This document shows, piece by piece, positions 3,199-17,808 of a stretch of DNA of 27,353 bases. Every line of letters begins with the position of its first letter. The stretch's first letter is position 1. Source of the DNA: Acidobacteriaceae bacterium (GTDB lineage Bacteria; Acidobacteriota; Terriglobia; Terriglobales; Acidobacteriaceae). Below the pieces are notes generated by a model, which was not told the origin of the DNA, ran no database searches, and was given only the letters and a program-made list of their open reading frames with translations. Both the position numbers and the translations under genes were made by a program. Location: the NCBI GenBank assembly GCA_031296355.1, contig JARLFX010000133.1, positions 1-27,353 on the forward strand, in the 5' to 3' direction.

Positions 3199-4851
3199 TT
3201 ATGCTGCTTGTGCTGCGGAGCGTTTGCGGAACCGCGCCAGCACCGTCTGCGGCAGTTGCGATCCCATTGCGATCAGCAGCCCTGCGCTGATTGCGACCCA
3301 TACCAGCGTGCCCAGCGTCAGCGATACGGTATCTGCAATCATGCCGCTACGCTGTGGCAGATAGTGCATCATGGCGCGCAGCGCAACCAGAGCCACCACA
3401 CCAGTCAGCAGCGTGCGCGTCAGTTCTTTCCATGCGATACCGCTCAGTCTTGCCAGCTTGCAGTGATGCAGCAGCACAGCCATTGCCATGGTCTGCACGA
3501 AGATTCCAATGTTTGAAGCCCAGACCAGTCCGATGGTGCCGTGGGTGCGATACAGTAGTTTGTAGACCGGATACGAGGCAATGGTGATGATGGTGCCCGC
3601 TATCATGGGCGTAAGCGTGTTGCCCGCTGCGTAGAAGGCTCGTGCATAGATGGATTGTGCTGACCAGAAGCACAGCGAGATGGCAAACATGGAGAAGTAG
3701 AGCGCAATAGCATCCGCATTGCTCTGCCGCAGCGCACCATGGTGCAGCATCAGGTCGATCGCCGGTTTCGCCAGCCCAATCATCCATGCTGACCCCAGCA
3801 GTGAAACGGCAGCAATGCGCGTGACTGAGCCGTTCACCAGCCGCGCAAACTCCACGCGCTTGCCCTGCCCGATAAGCGATGCAAAAAACGGCATGGAAGC
3901 TGCCCCCGCGGCCATGCCCAGGATCGCCATGGGCGCGGTGAAGAATTTCTTCGCATAGTTCAGTTGCGCAATCTGTCCGTCGCCCGCTGACGCAATGCGG
4001 TTGATGATCCAGGTATCGAAGGTCACCAGCGAAACGCCTAGGATCAGCGGTAGCGAGAGCTGTACCCACTCCTTCACGCCAGGATGGTTCCATGCCAGCG
4101 AGAGCCGCAGCCGGAAACCGGTGCGGTAGACCCCGATGGCATTGATGAGAAATGGGCCCAGTATCACGCCGATAAGCGCGCCCACCGAAAGCCCGGAGAT
4201 TCCCAGACGATGCGCCAGCGTCACGCCGCCGAAGATGATGCCTAGGTTGTAGATCAGCGGCCCAATCGCCTGGTAGGCGAACTGCTTGCGCACGATCAGC
4301 ACTGAGCCCAGTACTCCGCCGGCAAAGAAGAAGAGCTGCACCGGCAGCAGAATGCGCGTCATGTGTGTGGTCAAGTCGATCTTTTCTGGCGTGAACTTAT
4401 CGAACCACCACGCCACAAAGTAGCGCGCAAAGACTTCGCCCAGCACAATGCCAGCGCCCAGTACCACCAGCATCATGGAAAGAATGGCTGAGAGCGCGTC
4501 TTCGCCTTCCTTCTCCTTGCCCTGTTCGCGGTAGCGCCCCAGAATGCTGACGAACGCGATCGAGGCCACGCCGCCGACCAGAAAATAATTGATCATGTCT
4601 GGGAGTTGGAAAGCGGCCGTATAGGAGTCCACATCGCCGCCCGCGCCGAAACGCCATGCGGTATAGGTGTCGCGCAGCAGCCCGATTACCCGCGACAAGA
4701 TGGTGGACGCCATCAGCAGCAGCGTGGCGGAGAGTGCCGTGTGTTGGTGCGAAAGTCGCAACCAGCCCGGCCGTTTTGCGGACGTATCCGTTACGGCGGC
4801 AGCAGAATCAGGTTCCAGCGGTGCGGGCGAAGGGGAGAGGTCAGCGGACAT
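3199..4851 (-). CDS. murJ: Lipid II flippase MurJ
   Basis: Integral membrane flippase of the MOP superfamily that moves the peptidoglycan precursor lipid II across the inner membrane. The 550-residue product is almost entirely hydrophobic segments, as expected for 14 helices. SRVIGLLRD (residues 53-61) and DSYTAAFQLPD (75-85) match the E. coli MurJ N-terminal motifs that carry Arg18, Arg24 and Asp39; here these would be Arg54, Arg60 and Asp75. The first 40 residues are a hydrophilic extension relative to E. coli. I chose ATG 4851 (MSADLSPSP); the frame stays open up to 5013, but translation there looks unlike protein. No good Shine-Dalgarno lies near 4851 (an AGGA is about 20 nt upstream), so the exact start is uncertain. 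It lies 85 bp after the small cysteine-motif gene on the same strand. Confidence 0.93.
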   Translation of the reverse strand: MSADLSPSPAPLEPDSAAAVTDTSAKRPGWLRLSHQHTALSATLLLMASTILSRVIGLLRDTYTAWRFGAGGDVDSYTAAFQLPDMINYFLVGGVASIAFVSILGRYREQGKEKEGEDALSAILSMMLVVLGAGIVLGEVFARYFVAWWFDKFTPEKIDLTTHMTRILLPVQLFFFAGGVLGSVLIVRKQFAYQAIGPLIYNLGIIFGGVTLAHRLGISGLSVGALIGVILGPFLINAIGVYRTGFRLRLSLAWNHPGVKEWVQLSLPLILGVSLVTFDTWIINRIASAGDGQIAQLNYAKKFFTAPMAILGMAAGAASMPFFASLIGQGKRVEFARLVNGSVTRIAAVSLLGSAWMIGLAKPAIDLMLHHGALRQSNADAIALYFSMFAISLCFWSAQSIYARAFYAAGNTLTPMIAGTIITIASYPVYKLLYRTHGTIGLVWASNIGIFVQTMAMAVLLHHCKLARLSGIAWKELTRTLLTGVVALVALRAMMHYLPQRSGMIADTVSLTLGTLVWVAISAGLLIAMGSQLPQTVLARFRKRSAAQAA

Positions 4852-4936
4852 GGGCAGTGCGATGATTTTATCCTGCGGAAAGCCATGCCCAGTGCAATTC
4901 AGGGGTAAGCAGTCGGTTTCCTGCCTTGCAAAACCG

Positions 4937-5233
4937 TTACTTGTCGTGTTTCTTTTGCAATGCTTCCAGCGCTGCGCGGTCCGATCCGGCCGTCCACGAG
5001 CGCCAGTTTTCACGCGCCTTGGTGGGCGTTGCGCCGCGGCTGGCGGCAGAGAGCGCCATGCATGCAGTCAGAAAATCCACATACTGCCTCTGGCTGCAGC
5101 GCCGACAGCGCACGGGATAATGCAATTTCAGCAGCGCAATGAAATCAGTCATGCCGCGAAAGCCCGAGCGGATGAACTTTCGCCCCGGACAATACTGGCA
5201 GCCGCCGCGAACGCCTTTCGGCTTTTCCTGCAT
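4937..5233 (-). CDS. Small four-cysteine (zinc-ribbon-like) protein
   Basis: I do not recognise a named family. The 98-residue reading has paired CxxC motifs (C12/C15 in GCQYCPGRK and C43/C46 in PVRCRRCSQRQYVDF) around a basic/hydrophobic middle, the layout of a small zinc ribbon. ATG 5233 is the first ATG in frame but has no Shine-Dalgarno. The same frame is open upstream into the merR 3' end, and two ATT codons at 5344 and 5341 follow a clean AGGAG (minus strand, 5349-5353) by 4 and 7 nt. Translation from ATT 5341 would give 134 residues. It lies between merR and murJ on the same strand. The ORF is probably real because of the cysteine pattern; function unknown. Confidence 0.6.
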   Translation of the reverse strand: MQEKPKGVRGGCQYCPGRKFIRSGFRGMTDFIALLKLHYPVRCRRCSQRQYVDFLTACMALSAASRGATPTKARENWRSWTAGSDRAALEALQKKHDK

Positions 5234-5378
5234 GGCCGGCGGGCCACGCTTTTCCGTTGCAAGGGGTGCAAATTCCTGCCATGTCGGTTCGGACGGTCCT
5301 TCGCCTGTTGTGGAATGACTCGACTTGGTTGAATCGGAAATAATGGCGCTCCTGTTGCAACGGTTGCGTGTTTGCGCC

Positions 5379-5879
5379 TTAGAACAGCCCGCGCTCGGGC
5401 CCTGGTGCAGGCTGCGGCTTCAATCGCGGACGAAACCGTGAAGCCGTCAACTGGGTAACAGGGGCTGGTGCCGAGAGCATGTTCAGAATCTCATTCAGTT
5501 CCTTGCGCAATTTCTGCACACGAATATCGGTTTGCAGGCTGCTTACGCCTCGCGGTTCAAACGGCAGCTCGGGCGATTTCTGCTTCTGCTGTTCCTTGAA
5601 GACCTGGCGCGCCCCGGGAATGGTGTATCCCTCGTCGTAGAGCAGCCGCTTGATATGCAACGCGCTCTCTACATCCCGGCGGCGGTACAGGCGTTGCCCG
5701 GTGCCGCCCTTATTGGGCTTCAGTTGCGGAAATTCGCTCTCCCAGAAGCGCAGCACATAGGCCGGTACATCGCACAGCCGCGCTACTTCGCCAATGCGAA
5801 AGTAGAGCTTGTCCGGAATCTGTGCCGGCGGCTTCGGTGGCGCTGCATTCCGTTTGCGGGTTGGCTGCTGCGATGGCAT
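5379..5879 (-). CDS. MerR-family transcriptional regulator
   Basis: A 166-residue DNA-binding regulator. Residues about 25-95 form the MerR winged-helix domain: [22 protein letters not shown] (two parts, 26-47), then [24 protein letters not shown] (62-85 region). A Gln/Lys-rich linker and a helical tail ([17 protein letters not shown]) follow, suitable for dimerisation. No C-terminal effector domain or metal-binding cysteine cluster is visible, so the signal is unknown; this short subtype is common beside housekeeping genes in acidobacteria. ATG 5879 follows GGCAGGAAG almost directly. A TATACT -10-like box (minus strand, 5893-5898) would give a very short leader. The reading frame upstream of 5879 overlaps the oxidoreductase gene and is not coding-like. 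Confidence 0.88.
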
Positions 5880-5940
5880 CTTCCTGCCATGCAGTATACG
5901 GCCAACGCAGCGTGGAAGAACGGCCTTTTTGCGCGGATTC

Positions 5941-7080
5941 TCAGCCCTGTCGTTCAGGCGGAAGGACAGGTTCGCGATGCGGCACTTTGTATGCTGCGGC
6001 GCGCTCATACTGCACCGGCCAAGGAATGGCATGGCCAAGCGCACGCGCAGCATGCAGTGGCCAGTAAGGATCGCGCAGCAGCTCCCGTGCCAGCAGTACC
6101 AGGTCTGCCTGGCCGCTGCGCACAATGGCATCAGCCTGCTCCGGCTCTGTGATCAGCCCCACGGCCGCCGTCGGCACCTGTGCCTCGCGGCGGATACGCT
6201 CTGCGAACGGCACCTGGAAGCCCGGCCCCACCGGTATCTTCGCGCTATGCAGGTTGCCGCCAGTCGAAACATCCACCAGATCTACGCCCTCCGCGTGTAG
6301 CAATTTTGCCAATTTGACCGATTGGTCCGGATCCCACGACTGTCCAGAGCCTTCCGCGGCCCAATCCGTGGCGGAAATACGGACGAACAGCGGTAAATTT
6401 TGCGGCCATACCGCGCGCACGGCCCGGGTTACTTCCAGCAGCAGCCTGCTCCGGTTCTCAAAGCTGCCGCCATACTCGTCAGTGCGCTGATTGCTGAGTG
6501 GCGAGAGGAACTGGTGCAGCAGATAGCCGTGCGCTGCATGGATCTCCGCGACGTCAAAACCAGCCGTCAGCGCCCGTTGCGCAGCCGTGGCAAATGCCGT
6601 AACCAACCGTGGAATATCCCATAGATTGACCATGTGCGGCACCGCATAATTCTCCGCGTAGGGCACCGGCGAAGGCGCCACCACATTGGTCCATCCGCCG
6701 TCCGCCTCGCTCACCACATGCGCTGAAGCCCACGGCACGGCCATGCTGGATTTGCGCCCTGCATGCGCCAGTTGGATGCCTGCATAGGCTCCATGCTGGT
6801 GCAGAAAGCTGGTAATACGCTGCAGTGGCGCAATCTGCCCGTCGTTCCATAGGCCCAGGTCCTGCGGCGTGATGCGCCCCTCCGGCAAGACCGCAGCCGC
6901 CTCCGTAATCACCAGTCCTGCGCCGCCGATGGCCCGGCTCCCGAGGTGGACCAGGTGCCATTCGTTCGCCAGTCCATCAACCGAGCTGTACTGGCACATG
7001 GGCGAGACCGCAATGCGGTTTGGCAGGGTGATGCCGCGAAGCGTAAGGGGAGAAAAGAGGTGGTTTATTGAATCGGCCAT
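5941..7080 (-). CDS. NADH:flavin oxidoreductase, old yellow enzyme family (YqjM-like)
   Basis: FMN-dependent ene-reductase with a TIM-barrel fold, 379 residues, which reduces activated C=C bonds with NAD(P)H. Motifs: [13 protein letters not shown] with Cys29, matching the redox-modulating Cys of B. subtilis YqjM; HAGRKSS (106-112); SPVPYAE; the substrate-anchoring His pair HAAHGYL (H181 and H184); and [15 protein letters not shown], the family signature. The PMC(Q)YS variant marks the thermophilic-like/YqjM subclass. Start ATG 7080 gives [12 protein letters not shown], the usual N-terminus; the frame upstream is not conserved-looking. It is divergent from the zinc-ribbon gene at 7198 and lies 61 bp upstream of merR on the same strand. 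The physiological substrate is not known for this class. Confidence 0.93.
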
Positions 7081-7197
7081 ACATAGTAAAGATGCGCTAA
7101 ACGGCCATACGATGCCAAATGAGACGCCCTTTTCCTGCATCTTCCACGGCTGCATCTCCTTGCTACTCGTGGCCTACTGCGTTAGCTTCGATAAGGA

Positions 7198-7923
7198 ATG
7201 CAAGCTGACCAGATTATCTGTCACCGCTGTTCTGCCGTCTTTCCAGACGAAAGCCTGTACTGCCCCCAGTGCGGCGCGCCGCAGCTGGTATTGACTGAGG
7301 CAGACGCGGAACGCATCACTGCTGACCGGGCGCTGGCCCCTGCATCGGCCACCGCAATGCCGCGCCTCTCCGGTTCACAACGCATTCGCTGGCGGCCCTT
7401 GTTGCGCATTATTGCAGTTCTGGCACTGGTGGCGGCACTGGTACTGGCGCTCGGCAGTGCGCTGCCGGGTCTGGGACTGCTGGGCCTGTTCATCATCTTC
7501 GCTTCACCCATGTTTACGCTGAACTTTTACCAGCGCCGGGTGTCGGGAGCGCCCATGAGTGCGAGCATCGGTGCACGCATCGGCATTGCTCTTGGAGTCC
7601 TGATGGCCTTTGTCCTGGCCACGGTGGATGCTGCCCGGGAGCTCATCTCCCGCTACCTGCTTCACAACGGCGCAGCCATGGATCAGGCGATAAGCGCGGC
7701 GGTGCAGAAGATGACGGAGCAGATGGCTTCCAATCCGTCTGCCGCGGCAAATGCTCCGGAATTCCGGCAGATGCTCCATTTCTTTACGACGCCGGACGGG
7801 CACGCCGCCCTGGGGTTGATGAGTGGAGCCATGATGGCAGCCGGCATCCTGGTTTACAGCGCATTTTCCGCCATGGTGCTGGGCTGGCTGCGCCCCATGC
7901 CACAGCGCCGCAATGGGTTGTAG
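7198..7923 (+). CDS. Zinc-ribbon membrane protein, function unknown
   Basis: 241 residues. An N-terminal zinc ribbon (C8, C11, C22 and C25 in CHRC and CPQC) is followed by a polar linker and about four hydrophobic segments: two between about residues 65 and 110, one at 124-145 and one near the C-terminus (ALGLMSGAMMAAGILVYSAF). This layout is common in acidobacterial hypothetical proteins. The only possible ATG is 7198, because TAA sits two codons upstream in frame; the AAGGA motif directly abuts that ATG, far closer than the usual 5-9 nt. The gene lies 76 bp before pyrR on the same strand and may be cotranscribed with it, but nothing links it to pyrimidine metabolism. Confidence 0.75.
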   Translation: MQADQIICHRCSAVFPDESLYCPQCGAPQLVLTEADAERITADRALAPASATAMPRLSGSQRIRWRPLLRIIAVLALVAALVLALGSALPGLGLLGLFIIFASPMFTLNFYQRRVSGAPMSASIGARIGIALGVLMAFVLATVDAARELISRYLLHNGAAMDQAISAAVQKMTEQMASNPSAAANAPEFRQMLHFFTTPDGHAALGLMSGAMMAAGILVYSAFSAMVLGWLRPMPQRRNGL

Positions 7924-7999
7924 AGGAGCGCCGGTTTCTTCCACAGAGCAGAAGATTTGCTCCACAGCCGCGACAGAACGTATCATCACCACAATCGAT

Positions 8000-8563
8000 A
8001 TGAGTGACAACAGCAAACCTGTCTTGCGTGAAAAGGCTCGCCTGATGTCGGCCTCCGAGATTGAGCGGACGCTGGTTCGTCTGGCGCATGAAATTACGGA
8101 AAAGAGTAACGGCAGCAGCAATCTGGCGTTGGTCGGCATCAAGCGTCGCGGTGTACCGCTGGCTAATCGCATTGCCGCCCACATTGCGCAGATTGAAAAG
8201 CGCCCCGTCGATACCGGCGTGCTCGATATCAGTTTCTACCGCGACGATCTCTCGACCTACGATGTGCGTCCTGTCGTGCATAAGGGTGCAATCGGTTTTG
8301 ACGTGAACGGTCGCGATATTCTGCTAATGGACGATGTGCTTTACACTGGCCGCACCATTCGCGCCGCCATGGATGCACTCTTCGATCATGGCCGTCCGCG
8401 TAGCGTGCAGTTGCTGGTTCTGATCGATCGCGGACACCGCGAACTGCCCATCGAAGCGACCTACGTGGGCCGCACCGTGCAGACGACGGATAAAGAGATC
8501 ATCGAAGTGAAATTCCAGGAGATCGACGGCTCCGAGCAGGTTCTTCTCGTCGAACGGGACTAG
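8000..8563 (+). CDS. pyrR: PyrR: pyr operon regulator / uracil phosphoribosyltransferase
   Basis: 187-residue type I phosphoribosyltransferase. In PyrR proteins this fold binds UMP/UTP and pyr mRNA and also makes UMP from uracil and PRPP. The PRPP-binding signature ILLMDDVLYTGRTIRAAMD is at residues 107-125. GIKRRGVPLANRIA (47-60) and DISFYRDDLST (76-86) are the other PyrR-typical blocks, and the C-terminus GRTVQTTDKEIIEVKF is also typical. Start ATG 8000 gives MSDNSKPVLREKARLMSASE; the longer frame from 7913 overlaps the upstream gene. It is followed 46 bp later by pyrB. I see no PyrR-type attenuator before pyrR or between pyrR and pyrB, so the regulatory role here is inferred from family and context. 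Confidence 0.95.
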   Translation: MSDNSKPVLREKARLMSASEIERTLVRLAHEITEKSNGSSNLALVGIKRRGVPLANRIAAHIAQIEKRPVDTGVLDISFYRDDLSTYDVRPVVHKGAIGFDVNGRDILLMDDVLYTGRTIRAAMDALFDHGRPRSVQLLVLIDRGHRELPIEATYVGRTVQTTDKEIIEVKFQEIDGSEQVLLVERD

Positions 8564-15568: not shown

Positions 15569-15576
15569 CTTAGCCT
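15569..15576. repeat. Target site duplication, left copy
   Basis: CTTAGCCT directly outside the left inverted repeat; an identical copy lies at 17801-17808 outside the right inverted repeat. Eight bp is the duplication length typical of the IS1595 family. Confidence 0.9.
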
Positions 15577-15600
15577 GACAATTATCCCCTTGACACAGAA
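15577..15600 (+). repeat. Left terminal inverted repeat (24 bp)
   Basis: Begins GACAATTATCCCCTTGACAC and is the exact reverse complement of 17777-17800. It contains the TTGACA -35 box of the likely transposase promoter. Confidence 0.93.
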
Positions 15601-15618
15601 AAGGATTTATCCGATACT
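15590..15618 (+). promoter_or_regulatory. Likely transposase promoter, -35 inside the inverted repeat
   Basis: Consensus TTGACA at 15590-15595, exactly 17 bp, then GATACT at 15613-15618 (4 of 6 matches to TATAAT). Transcription would begin near 15625, shortly before an AGAGGA ribosome site and the ATG at 15641. Confidence 0.55.
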
Positions 15619-15640
15619 GAACAGGTAGAGGATAACAGCC

Positions 15641-16594
15641 ATGAACCTGATAGACGTTTCCCGCGAACTTGCTACCGATGAGCAGTGCCTAGCCTTCCTT
15701 GAGAAGCAGCGTTGGCCGGATGGAATCGTGCGTTGCCCTACCTGCGGCAATGACAAGATCAGCCACATCACACGCAAATCAGCAACCAAGAACAAACGCG
15801 CTCAGGTCTACCAGTGCTTAGAGCCGACCTGCAAGCAGCAGTTCTCCGCGACCAATGGCAGCATCTTCCATGACTCTCACCTTCCCCTGCATAAGTGGTT
15901 TATGGCGATTGCCCTCATCGTGGATGCGAAGAAGGGAATGTCAGCCAAGCAGCTACAGAAGCATCTCGGCATCGGCTCCTACAAGACTGCATGGTATGTC
16001 TGCCATCGCATCCGTAAGGCTATGGTGGACTCCAATCCTATGCCCATGACTGGCACGGTCGAAGTGGATGAGACGTACATTGGCGGTACTTCTATCCGCC
16101 GTTTCCAGAAGACTCCAAAACCTAAACCGCCAAAAGAGATGGTGCTGGCAATGCGTGAGCGCAGCACAAAGACCACTACAGGCCGGGTGCGTTTCTTCCA
16201 TGTTCCCGATGGCAAGCGCGTCACACTACAGCCACTCATTGACGCACACATTGACCCGTATGCGAAGCGCATCATCACTGACTGCTCATCGGTCTATGAC
16301 TTTGCAATAAGCGCATGGCACAAGAACAATCACCGCAAGGTGAATCACTCTCAGGAATGGGTTGTTCCGGGTAGCCGCATCCACACGAATACAGTGGAGT
16401 CCAGTTTCTCACTCTTGAAGCGCGGCCTGATAGGGAGCTTCCATCGCGTCTCGATAAAGCACCTGCACCGCTATCTAACCGAGTTTGAGTATCGCTTCAA
16501 CGCACGGCGTGACGCTGCCATCTTCGAGAACACGGTAAGCGAGATGCTACAGACCAAGCCGATGCCAATGAAGCAGCTTATCGCAGGGGTTTAG
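15641..16594 (+). CDS. IS1595-family (ISXO2-like) transposase
   Basis: 317 residues, complete. An N-terminal zinc ribbon (C32, C35, C59 and C64: CPTCGND and CLEPTC) is followed by a helical DNA-binding part (KGMSAKQLQKHLGIGSYKTAWYVCHRI in 98-124) and the ISXO2-like catalytic domain: D143 in EVDETYIGG, D214 in IITDCSSVYDF, and HTNTVESSFSLLKRG (248-262) with N250 and K260, matching the DD(N/E) arrangement of this family. FHRVSIKHLHRYLTEFEYRFN is the usual C-terminal block. No frameshift or stop interrupts it. Start ATG 15641 follows AGAGGA. Four of its 21 Ile codons are ATA (residues 4, 223, 264 and 272). Its last 17 bp overlap the 3' end of the opposite-strand 43-residue ORF. Confidence 0.95.
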   Translation: MNLIDVSRELATDEQCLAFLEKQRWPDGIVRCPTCGNDKISHITRKSATKNKRAQVYQCLEPTCKQQFSATNGSIFHDSHLPLHKWFMAIALIVDAKKGMSAKQLQKHLGIGSYKTAWYVCHRIRKAMVDSNPMPMTGTVEVDETYIGGTSIRRFQKTPKPKPPKEMVLAMRERSTKTTTGRVRFFHVPDGKRVTLQPLIDAHIDPYAKRIITDCSSVYDFAISAWHKNNHRKVNHSQEWVVPGSRIHTNTVESSFSLLKRGLIGSFHRVSIKHLHRYLTEFEYRFNARRDAAIFENTVSEMLQTKPMPMKQLIAGV

Positions 16595-16709
16595 TCTCTA
16601 TTATTTTGCCGACCTTCGGCTGACCCGTCTTGGCATCTGACCGCTTTATCGGTGAGGCCTTCAAGAGGTTATCAACCACAGCGACGAATTGTGCTTTATC
16701 AACCTTCAT
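16578..16709 (-). CDS. IS passenger: 43-residue basic ORF
   Basis: Product MKVDKAQFVAVVDNLLKASP followed by a Lys-rich tail (KTGQPKVGKIIETKPLR region). It starts 24 nt after the XRE gene on the same strand and ends antisense to the last codons of the transposase, so XRE and this ORF form a small minus-strand operon. The amphipathic start plus basic, Pro-rich tail resembles small proteins that I recall sitting beside XRE regulators, but I cannot name a family. All three of its Ile codons are ATA. The ATG has an ATGAAG context but only a weak ribosome site (TTCAATCC). It could be a DNA- or antisense-linked regulator, or a toxin/antitoxin partner; function unknown. Confidence 0.55.
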   Translation of the reverse strand: MKVDKAQFVAVVDNLLKASPIKRSDAKTGQPKVGKIIETKPLR

Positions 16710-16733
16710 GGATTGAAGTATAAGCCTAGACAT

Positions 16734-16946
16734 TTATTCAACTCCATCAAACATCTCCGCTAAAGTCACTCGTAGCCCTTTGGCAATAAGGTGCAAGGTA
16801 TCTATTCGTGCAGAGAATTTTCCATTCTCCAACTGGCTTAGGTAGGCACGCTGTTGCTGTGACGCTTTGGCTAAATCCGCCTGCGTCATGCCTTTTAGGT
16901 GACGTATAGCGCGGATTCTTGCGCCTAAACGCTCCTGAACATCCAA
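16734..16946 (-). CDS. IS passenger: XRE/Cro-CI-family DNA-binding protein
   Basis: A 70-residue single helix-turn-helix domain: LGARIRAIRHLKGMTQADLA (7-26), then KASQQQRAYLSQLENGKFSA with the recognition helix and the usual LSQLENGK motif, and TLHLIAKGLRVTLAEMF closing the five-helix bundle. The start is TTG 16946, with GAGG placed 6 nt upstream; no ATG is available in frame. It is divergent from the 144-residue ORF across 108 bp, the expected place for its operators. By analogy with other mobile elements it probably represses its own operon or the divergent gene. Two of its four Ile codons are ATA. Confidence 0.85.
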   Translation of the reverse strand: MDVQERLGARIRAIRHLKGMTQADLAKASQQQRAYLSQLENGKFSARIDTLHLIAKGLRVTLAEMFDGVE

Positions 16947-17054
16947 GATAACCTCGGGAAATGTTCAAAGTTTTAAACAAAGACCATTTTTCCTTGATGG
17001 AAGTATTGCGTCAACAACCAAAGAGCCATAGGGTTAACTACAGGGTAACAAGCC

Positions 17055-17489
17055 ATGACCATCGACCTCAAAACGATTGAAAGCAACTTGGCAAAGGCCA
17101 AGTTAGATGTCTTGTTCTGGGAAAAGGCTCGCGCTGTATTCAGCGATCCACGTGTAGCAGCTGTGGTTGGTAGCGCAGAGCTTGTACAGCCTCGCCCAAC
17201 ACTCTTAGAGCAGGTAACAGCACAAAAGCCTTACGGAGAACTCAAACGGAGAGTGTATGCGCTTCTCCCAGGATTTGAAGATGATGGATTAACCACCAGC
17301 GCCATCGTGGGAATGATGCAGAATGCCGGATATATATTCGCTTCAAAATATCCGCCAATATCGGTCAATGAAGCCCTTGTGACACTTGCTGGAGAAGGCA
17401 AGGCTCGTATTGTAGGTAAACGTGGTGTGTCTAATTTATGGACACGCGAAAAAGTTCAATCCCAGCTTGAAGAAAATGCAGCCGGGTAA
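17055..17489 (+). CDS. IS passenger: 144-residue protein with probable winged helix
   Basis: I do not recognise the family. Residues 1-30 are an amphipathic helix (IDLKTIESNLAKAKLDVLFW); about 62-131 read as a winged helix: LKRRVYALLPGF, GLTTSAIVGMMQNAGY (helix-turn-helix-like), ISVNEALVTLAGEGKARIVG (recognition helix and wing) and RGVSNLW. This suggests a DNA-binding or replication/regulation accessory protein. ATG 17055 follows CAGGGTAACAAG. It is divergent from the XRE gene and 103 bp upstream of the tRNA gene, with a strong hairpin in between. Two of its six Ile codons are ATA. It could cooperate with the transposase or control the tRNA; neither is shown. Confidence 0.7.
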   Translation: MTIDLKTIESNLAKAKLDVLFWEKARAVFSDPRVAAVVGSAELVQPRPTLLEQVTAQKPYGELKRRVYALLPGFEDDGLTTSAIVGMMQNAGYIFASKYPPISVNEALVTLAGEGKARIVGKRGVSNLWTREKVQSQLEENAAG

Positions 17490-17546
17490 AGATTGCGGCG
17501 CGCAGGGCAGCCTCCAAGCCTGCCGCTTGTTGCCGTAATGCAGGAA

Positions 17547-17583
17547 GAGCCAGTAAAGAGCATCCAACACTCTCTACTGGCTC
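17547..17583 (+). other. Strong hairpin just upstream of the tRNA gene
   Basis: A 9-bp perfect stem (GAGCCAGTA at 17547-17555 with TACTGGCTC at 17575-17583), one A/C mismatch, then 4 more bp (AGAG with CTCT) and a 9-nt loop. It ends 9 nt before the tRNA 5' end. There is no T-tract, so it is not a classical terminator; it may guide processing, regulate, or stop the preceding transcript imperfectly. Confidence 0.6.
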
Positions 17584-17592
17584 CCACATATC

Positions 17593-17678
17593 GGAGGGTT
17601 ACCCCTAATGGTAAGGGCGTGGATTTATAATCCACCGTGGCTGGCCGTCACTTGCGGGTTCGAGTCCCGCACCCTCCG
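17593..17678 (+). tRNA. Class II tRNA with anticodon UAU (AUA-reading), carried by the IS
   Basis: An 86-nt cloverleaf. Acceptor GGAGGGT/ACCCTCC (7 bp, perfect); linker TA; D arm with 3 bp (CCC/GGG, a 13-22 mismatch as in class II tRNAs) and the GG pair at 17610-17611; anticodon stem GTGGA/TCCAC (5 bp) with loop TTTATAA, so the anticodon is TAT at 17626-17628, T33 and A37 in place. The 18-nt variable region holds a 5-bp stem GTGGC/GTCAC (one G-U) with a TGGCC loop, then TT. T arm GCGGG/CCCGC has loop TTCGAGT. Discriminator G73 at 17678; no encoded CCA (CAC follows). The long arm, GGA..TCC acceptor and G73 resemble tRNA-Ser; the anticodon would read the isoleucine codon AUA. Which synthetase charges it is unknown. 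Confidence 0.85.
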
Positions 17679-17776
17679 CACAACTTTTCCAAGCTTAGCT
17701 CTGATGCTTGCAGAGCGCAAGCCCCCAAACACTCCCATACCCTGTCACGGCAATACCAGAGTGCGCCTCATGGTAC

Positions 17777-17800
17777 TTCTGTGTCAAGGGGATAATTGTC
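17777..17800 (-). repeat. Right terminal inverted repeat (24 bp)
   Basis: Exact reverse complement of 15577-15600. A TTGACA box pointing inward on the minus strand is present, but no -10 follows at the right distance, so only the left end appears to drive transcription. Confidence 0.93.
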
Positions 17801-17808
17801 CTTAGCCT
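17801..17808. repeat. Target site duplication, right copy
   Basis: CTTAGCCT, identical to 15569-15576. Joining the flanks and removing one copy restores a continuous AT-rich spacer reading ...GGCACTTAGCCTATAGGATT... Confidence 0.9.

Follow-up and report, generated by a model that had tools for sequence, protein, structure and literature searches.

A serine-type tRNA inside an IS1595-family element appears coupled to codons of the element's own transposase and may act as a recoding switch

Why does a small insertion sequence carry a tRNA gene? The question is raised by a 27,353-nucleotide stretch of DNA from an Acidobacteriaceae bacterium (contig JARLFX010000133.1 of assembly GCA_031296355.1), hereafter called the window, in which a mobile element at positions 15577-17800 encloses a tRNA gene with anticodon UAU (17593-17678, plus strand). 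Comparison of this element with its relatives strongly supports, at the level of codon counts, a coupling between the anticodon of the tRNA and codons of the element's own transposase and of a small open reading frame (ORF), o51. We propose, giving this reading an even chance, that the tRNA, which is of serine type, re-reads chosen sense codons of these two genes and would thereby form a self-regulating recoding switch.

The limits of the element are clear. Its end repeats are identical over 24/24 bp (left, 15577-15600, plus strand; right, 17777-17800, minus strand), and the same 8 bp, CTTAGCCT, stand on either side (15569-15576 and 17801-17808, no strand). The transposase (317 amino acids (aa), 15641-16594, plus strand) matches PF12762 (DDE_Tnp_IS1595, 106.9 bits), PF12760 (Zn_ribbon_IS1595, 44.1 bits) and the NCBIfam model NF033547 (IS1595 family transposase, 189 bits for a cut-off of 75); a sequence search found no relative of it in the PDB. 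On every family feature tested, that is a zinc-ribbon DDE transposase, inverted ends and an 8-bp duplication, the element belongs to the IS1595 family. An earlier note, made from the letters of the window, had described it as an intact IS1595-like element with the tRNA inside, and both points are confirmed: ARAGORN labels the gene tRNA-Ile(TAT), and Rfam RF00005 matches it with 51.2 bits. The GC content of the element is 51%, and that of the rest of the window 61%.

The comparison covered 126 related transposase loci, namely the one in the window and 125 acidobacterial ones, made up of 5 early relatives and 120 loci fetched from class and family searches (60 + 60, mainly the best-scoring out of longer lists). 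The genomes sampled share class, family, phylum or order with one Granulicella metagenome-assembled genome or with a relative; duplicates (L002 and L005) were left out, as were L008-L011, which were too distant or partial. These loci are mutually related and p-values are uncorrected for descent, the tree presented below serving as a guard. An element was called complete when both ends were found together with a target duplication whose two copies agree at 6-8 of 8 bp, which gave 87 complete elements among the 126 loci, 84 of them with a duplication of 8/8.

All 126 loci were searched with ARAGORN and a structural UAU finder, to which a relaxed finder (37 loci) and a covariance model (49 sources) were added; odd-shaped tRNAs in distant elements could escape. 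The UAU group counted 15 loci for the early codon counts, 33 at an intermediate stage and 41 in the end. An earlier list of 41, used for the polar columns, the o51 alignment and the first likelihoods, contained eight loci added for their codons (L112, L113, L117, L118, L120, L054, L119 and L131), which favours the link. In the final list of 41 only tRNAs found by the searches are counted (L057, L138 and L143 in; L113, L117 and L120 out), and this list underlies the site counts, the complete-element counts, and the nested-lineage and likelihood figures.

A tRNA with anticodon UAU was found in 41 of the 126 loci and one with anticodon UAA in 6; 3 loci have another or a doubtful tRNA and 76 have none. 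Among complete elements, which are mostly 2-4 kb long, the numbers are 31/87 for UAU, 5/87 for UAA, 1 for another tRNA and 50 for none, so that the proposal that the tRNA is a cargo retained in other copies holds. The structural UAU finder gave matches in 31 loci, inside the element (at most 4 kb after the transposase when ends were unfound), and 0 matches in 933,352 bp of flanks.

Sixteen alignment columns of the 41 UAU transposases contain at least 20 Ile codons. At three of them, sites 4, 264 and 272 in window numbering (15650-15652, 16430-16432 and 16454-16456, all on the plus strand and all ATA in the window), ATA accounts for 30/30, 28/28 and 31/31 of the Ile codons, hence 89/89, and at the other 13 columns for 2/326. 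Neither ATT nor ATC was found at these three sites in the 41 UAU transposases, whereas both are present there in tRNA-less ones. The 6 UAA transposases have 25 columns with at least 5 Leu codons: TTA occupies sites 4 and 272 in 12/12 cases (6/6 at site 272), and the other 23 columns in 1/133. ATA thus goes with UAU and TTA with UAA at sites 4 and 272, and the same two places therefore switch codon with the anticodon. Another ATA of the window transposase, codon 223 (16307-16309, plus strand), is lineage-specific, being common to the window and L001.

Counted by complete elements, ATA at one, two or all three of the sites is found in 29/31 UAU elements versus 6/56 others (p 6e-15), and TTA likewise in 5/5 UAA elements versus 0/82 others. 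As a control, 26 columns with at least 10 Ile codons were examined in the 50 tRNA-less complete elements: in none of them is every Ile codon ATA, whose share peaks at 5/12, at residue 4. The wider search yielded a UAU tRNA in seven loci that had been negative by ARAGORN and the first finder (L054 and L143 by the relaxed finder; L112, L131, L057, L119 and L138 by the covariance model), of which five have ATA at two or three sites, L138 at one and L143 at none. The covariance model detected no tRNA inside L052, L053, L056, L059, L060, L126, L129, L134 and L136, and these nine loci have at most one ATA among the three sites. Eleven further loci of the family were also inspected: a UAA tRNA together with TTA at site 4 occurs in one of them, whose matched stretch stops before 272; in the other ten there is no tRNA, nor is any of the three sites ATA or TTA. 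In viral contigs only two distant transposases were found, with no tRNA and no matching codons where the sites were covered.

An AT-rich composition was considered as the cause of the ATA enrichment, and is ruled out by the other A-ending codons and by the concentration on sites. The share of ATA among Ile codons is indeed raised (67/306 in the 15 UAU loci versus 70/781; 166/790 versus 115/1216 in the final groups). In the 15 UAU loci, AGA, GTA, GGA, ACA, CCA, AAA and GAA are lower, and TTA, GCA, TCA and CTA slightly higher; within the Ile columns of the UAU set, 89 of the 91 ATAs fall in three columns.

The codons of o51 switch with the anticodon like those of the transposase. This ORF lies on the minus strand at 16578-16733 (51 aa from the outer start, 43 aa from an inner ATG, 16578-16709) and was found in 40/41 UAU loci and in 6/6 UAA loci. 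The 43-residue form, already seen in the earlier note, has 10 homologues, 8 of them of 41-44 aa. ATA represents 58/84 of the o51 Ile codons in the UAU group, 0/15 in the UAA group and 20/56 in the rest; TTA represents 2/123, 6/23 and 6/79 of the Leu codons, respectively. In the window, one ATA stands in the context P-ATA-K-R-S (16647-16649, minus strand) and two more follow a lysine (K-ATA-ATA, 16599-16604, minus strand), the matching place being TTA in 5/6 UAA elements. Judging from codon covariation with the anticodon, the conserved partners of the tRNA are the transposase and this 43-51-aa ORF. As o51 also exists, with other C-termini, in the tRNA-less IS1595 relatives L002, L003, L005 and L007, it may have a longer history as an accessory gene in IS1595-type elements.

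What kind of tRNA is it? The window copy has a long variable arm with a stem, the acceptor GGAGGGT/ACCCTCC, G73 and the anticodon UAU, which reads AUA. Acceptor, long variable arm and G73 are serine identity features, and a cognate tRNA-Ile is expected to have a class I body and A73. A cognate tRNA-Ile is ruled out by the class II body and G73. Among 47 element tRNAs, G73 is present in 45 (L001 and L112 read by eye; the exceptions are L123 with U and L077 with A), the G3-U70 pair in none, and an encoded CCA in 16. Serine is favoured because of these two first counts and because the non-UAU matches of the tRNA model described below are all tRNA-Ser or tRNA-Sec, and the tRNA is likely charged with serine by the host seryl-tRNA synthetase (SerRS). 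The acceptor branch is 7/5 in the window copy, 8/4 in relatives such as L001 and 9/3 in L054 and L143. The window tRNA thus has the long variable arm, the serine-type features and the non-serine anticodon of allo-tRNAs, and not their 8/4 or 9/3 acceptor branch; its 7/5 fold makes it one of the 7/5 forms within the element-borne group and no strict allo-tRNA. The ARAGORN "Stop" call in L118 is better taken as a UAU tRNA with a mismatched stem.

A few loci hold a second tRNA-like gene. In L061, L114, L125 and L144, an irregular class I gene lies just upstream of the UAU tRNA, with acceptor GGCCCGG/CCGGGCC (GGGCCGG in L125) and a variable anticodon (TGC, CGC, GGC or a 4-base reading). In L064, the UAU tRNA is followed by a second serine-type tRNA with anticodon UUA, corresponding to the stop codon UAA (the pair is at oriented positions 7251-7342 and 7350-7435); no partner codon was found for it, the stop of the transposase being TAG. 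A looser second tRNA search in 16 loci gave nothing convincing. The related IS1595-type element of L073 contains a tRNA with anticodon GUC, and neither GAC nor GAT occurs at its sites; in L080, a related IS1595-type locus whose ends are not delimited, a class I Ser(ACT) tRNA was called.

We then asked what ATA means in these proteins, using a column-profile likelihood over the transposase alignment in which rows with the same codon were left out; the telling figure is the contrast between serine and isoleucine. In the UAU transposases (33 columns), ATA scores -12.2 for T, -14.8 for S and K, -15.6 for A, -17.1 for R and -44.8 for I; with the three sites removed, S is at -10.1 and I at -44.0. 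In tRNA-less transposases the same codon scores 0.2 for V, -0.9 for I and -100.4 for S. As control codons of the UAU transposases, ATT scores I 21.4, V 20.5 and S -144.1, and ATC, for which V comes first, V 21.0, I -30.2 and S -171.4. Values from the earlier list of 41 were similar, and upon column resampling S is above I in 98.8% of draws. By this likelihood, ATA does not behave as Ile in the UAU transposases, whereas it does in the tRNA-less ones; serine fits, without being singled out. As in recoding systems, the element's own genes carry the codon in question, which judged from the alignment behaves as a non-standard amino acid. The hosts seem to decode AUA normally, as Ile, because a TilS match above cut-off was found in 14/14 host genomes tested and ATA represents 98/1234 Ile codons of flanking ORFs at 14 tRNA-bearing loci.

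The history of the group was followed on a tree of 71 transposases. Complete elements devoid of tRNA form four or five lineages nested among the UAU ones (L052/L053; L056; L059/L060/L136; L126/L129 plus L134, for one or two lineages). These nine members retain both ends and target duplications; their sites 264 and 272 are without ATA, and site 4 is ATA, ATC or ATT. The UAA elements form one branch, which includes the truncated, TTA-bearing locus L154. The nested lineages may have lost the tRNA, or their relatives may have gained it late. With several weakly supported forks and 16 changes of the UAU label on the tree (truncated loci scored as tRNA-less), the number of events is approximate.

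How could such a tRNA serve the element? We suggest that host SerRS would charge it, so that serine would be placed at AUA in competition with isoleucine from the host lysidine tRNA-Ile. The element might thereby make two forms of its transposase, a less certain step. In a naive cell, where the tRNA is absent, AUA would be read as Ile and the protein would resemble that of tRNA-free relatives. Once established, the element would make the tRNA, and a folded but altered serine form would build up and damp transposition, the tRNA acting as a self-limiting translational switch. As the tRNA is present only once the element is resident, the serine form would be the brake. The UAA/TTA elements would then represent a separate regulation or immunity group. 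This two-form model covers both the avoidance of the codon elsewhere, as if the working protein were made with the altered reading, and the non-serine residues of tRNA-free relatives. A little short of even odds, we would extend it to the whole clade: insertion sequences whose own serine tRNA gives AUA, or UUA in a sister group, a private, switchable reading at selected fixed positions in the transposase and o51, producing two protein forms according to residency, with the anticodon possibly defining an immunity or incompatibility group.

The main rival reverses the sign of the control. The serine at AUA or UUA would be needed for an active transposase, so that the enzyme would work only with its own tRNA, in a small private code. 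Several observations speak for such a licence: ATA and TTA are rare at the other Ile and Leu columns (2/326 and 1/133), as an altered reading would predict; many of the ATAs found away from the three sites fall at polar columns (W237, S/K/T; W193, S/A; W84, T); and site 272, when neither ATA nor TTA, is Ala in 43/77 transposases, a place that could accommodate Ser. The dependence would, however, be abolished by a direct Ser codon, and the nine nested tRNA-less relatives live with Ile, Val, Leu, Phe, Thr or His in these places, their ends and duplications intact. We regard a licence as possible but rather unlikely, and the choice of direction, brake or licence, as a guess of moderate weight.

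The proposal of a serine-reading switch, whatever its direction, has to face a series of unfavourable points. Serine is almost never encoded directly at sites 4, 264 and 272, the nine nested relatives having I at 4, I/V/L/F at 264 and T/V/H at 272; the o51 sites are V/I/L/M in relatives. Taken alone, the sites of both proteins would thus also suit ordinary hydrophobic residues. In the likelihood test, T scores above S, and Ser is the top residue in only 147/2000 resamplings. The coupling itself has exceptions: a single ATA persists among the three sites of six complete elements outside the UAU group; L143 and L144 have a UAU tRNA, no ATA at the three sites and five ATA elsewhere; and no tRNA was found in 15 incomplete loci with ATA or TTA at one of the sites, although in 14 of them the sequence ends at most 1.7 kb from the transposase (L141 has 5.0 kb). 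Solitary UAU tRNAs exist, with no transposase match in 18 kb (L196) or 12 kb (L197). Finally, in the review PMC7609411, the UAU group of allo-tRNAs is described as unusable for translation in E. coli, and irregular metatranscriptome relatives as not chargeable by E. coli enzymes.

A simpler role would be that of supply, the tRNA merely speeding the decoding of a rare codon with the standard residue (Ile at AUA, Leu at UUA). AUA is rare in the host, as the flanking ORFs indicate, the sites are largely hydrophobic in relatives, and tRNAs encoded by phages are known to follow the codon usage of their phage. We nevertheless find this improbable. A serine-type tRNA with G73 is unlike what isoleucyl-tRNA synthetase is known to use, the other Ile columns shun ATA, the ATA columns are not Ile-like, and the synonymous ATT and ATC present at the three sites of tRNA-less transposases are missing from all 41 UAU ones.

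Could the tRNA belong to the passengers instead? To the earlier note, the tRNA, an XRE regulator, the 43-residue ORF and a 144-residue winged-helix ORF looked like a compact selfish or addiction-type module. In the window, the XRE-family regulator (70 aa, 16734-16946, minus strand) is supported by HTH_3 (1.1e-12) and varies between elements; the 144-aa ORF (17055-17489, plus strand) has 6 homologues besides itself (identity 45-52%) and no Pfam or NCBIfam family, so that the regulator is confirmed and the winged helix is not. A cargo scan of 20 proteins (19 of 84 listed ORFs plus one from L001) found that passengers differ and the tRNA stays. XRE genes occur in L123, L119 and L062, an XRE-peptidase M78 gene in L001 and a weak Gp49-like match in L119 only; trypsin-like proteins are found in L142, L077 and L065, DUF3800 in L063, and no Pfam family in the remainder. 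The M78 protein (L001:7669-8727) also scores 199 bits against the PADLOC model RmrA. Of the expected pair of tRNA and regulator, other elements keep the tRNA, while XRE was seen in these four within the cargo scanned. In favour of a toxin-antitoxin-like selfish cargo made of tRNA, XRE and 144-aa protein are the XRE, XRE-M78 and Gp49-like genes of some elements, and a hypothesis mentioned in the review PMC7609411 links UAU allo-tRNAs to toxin-antitoxin systems or transposons. We consider such a cargo very improbable, and the module as first drawn is not supported, since the scanned passengers are not conserved with the tRNA and codon covariation involves the transposase and o51.

The tRNA was also searched on its own, with a tRNA model applied to 297 genomes of the phylum. 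Matches were obtained in 73 of them at E 1e-6 or better, and 20 loci were inspected, 16 being host-type (13 tRNA-Ser, 3 tRNA-Sec) and 4 UAU-type. The expectation that the tRNA goes with transposase and ends held for two of these four, L172 and L177, which are in elements; the other two (L173/L196 and L176/L197) are solitary. The UAU tRNA-like gene of L196 (9001 onwards) has no element ends either, and as L173 it adjoins a passenger-like ORF resembling, by eye, those of L137/L138; for that of L197 (6493-6578), no search for ends was made. Another acidobacterial contig, L198, has 20 tRNA genes within about 4.2 kb (3886-8086), one of them TAT. A chance hitchhiker or degenerating remnant, which the mismatched stems of some copies and the two transposase-less genes could suggest, is hard to hold and the least credible explanation, because codon covariation in two genes would be unexpected and 15 copies share one anticodon although their columns are on average 57% identical.

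Among known systems, IS1595 family insertion sequences with passenger genes are familiar, and the present elements share with them the transposase, the inverted ends, the 8-bp duplication and variable passengers, but differ in that their tRNA cargo is constant and codons of their transposase match it. Programmed frameshifting limits the transposase of IS1 and IS3, and frameshifting or antisense RNA restrain other insertion sequences. The likeness lies in a transposase limited by recoding at the level of translation; here, sense codons would be recoded by a tRNA that the element itself encodes.

Phages with recoded stop codons carry their own suppressor tRNAs. There as here, the tRNA of a mobile genome would give its own codons an altered meaning, perhaps as a switch; the codons concerned here are the sense codons AUA and UUA, confined to a small number of set positions in an insertion sequence instead of being spread over a genome. 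Phages also supply, like these elements, a tRNA for their own rare codons, but such tRNAs are cognate, while the tRNA of these elements combines a serine-type body with an Ile or Leu anticodon, and its codon is shunned at the other Ile or Leu columns. If the recoding switch is real, a transposon's own tRNA would alter the reading of its own sense codons, which would amount to a control circuit, and a mobile element some 2 kb long would be able to make local, reversible changes to the genetic code; in the UAA group, anticodon and codon seem to have been swapped together by nature.

A close parallel is found in the allo-tRNAs of Acidobacteria (Mukai et al. 2017, as reported in the review PMC7609411), class II serine-type tRNAs with non-serine anticodons. 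According to that review, UAU is the most abundant allo-tRNA group in soil and sediment metagenomes, and two Silvibacterium bohemicum allo-tRNAs, tried on CUC and UUA codons, put Ser in E. coli. Judged by titles and abstract openings, none of the papers listed in searches of the mainly open literature describes an element-borne tRNA with anticodon-codon covariation. The element tRNAs resemble allo-tRNAs by their serine-type class II body and non-serine anticodon, and by the 8/4 and 9/3 forms among relatives of the window copy. They differ in lying inside delimited IS1595-family elements, in being usually foldable by ARAGORN, in including a UAA group, in the 7/5 form of the window copy, and in the covariation of their anticodon with codons of the transposase and the small ORF. 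If the proposal is correct, it would provide a function for the abundant soil UAU allo-tRNAs, so far an orphan observation, and would explain their abundance.

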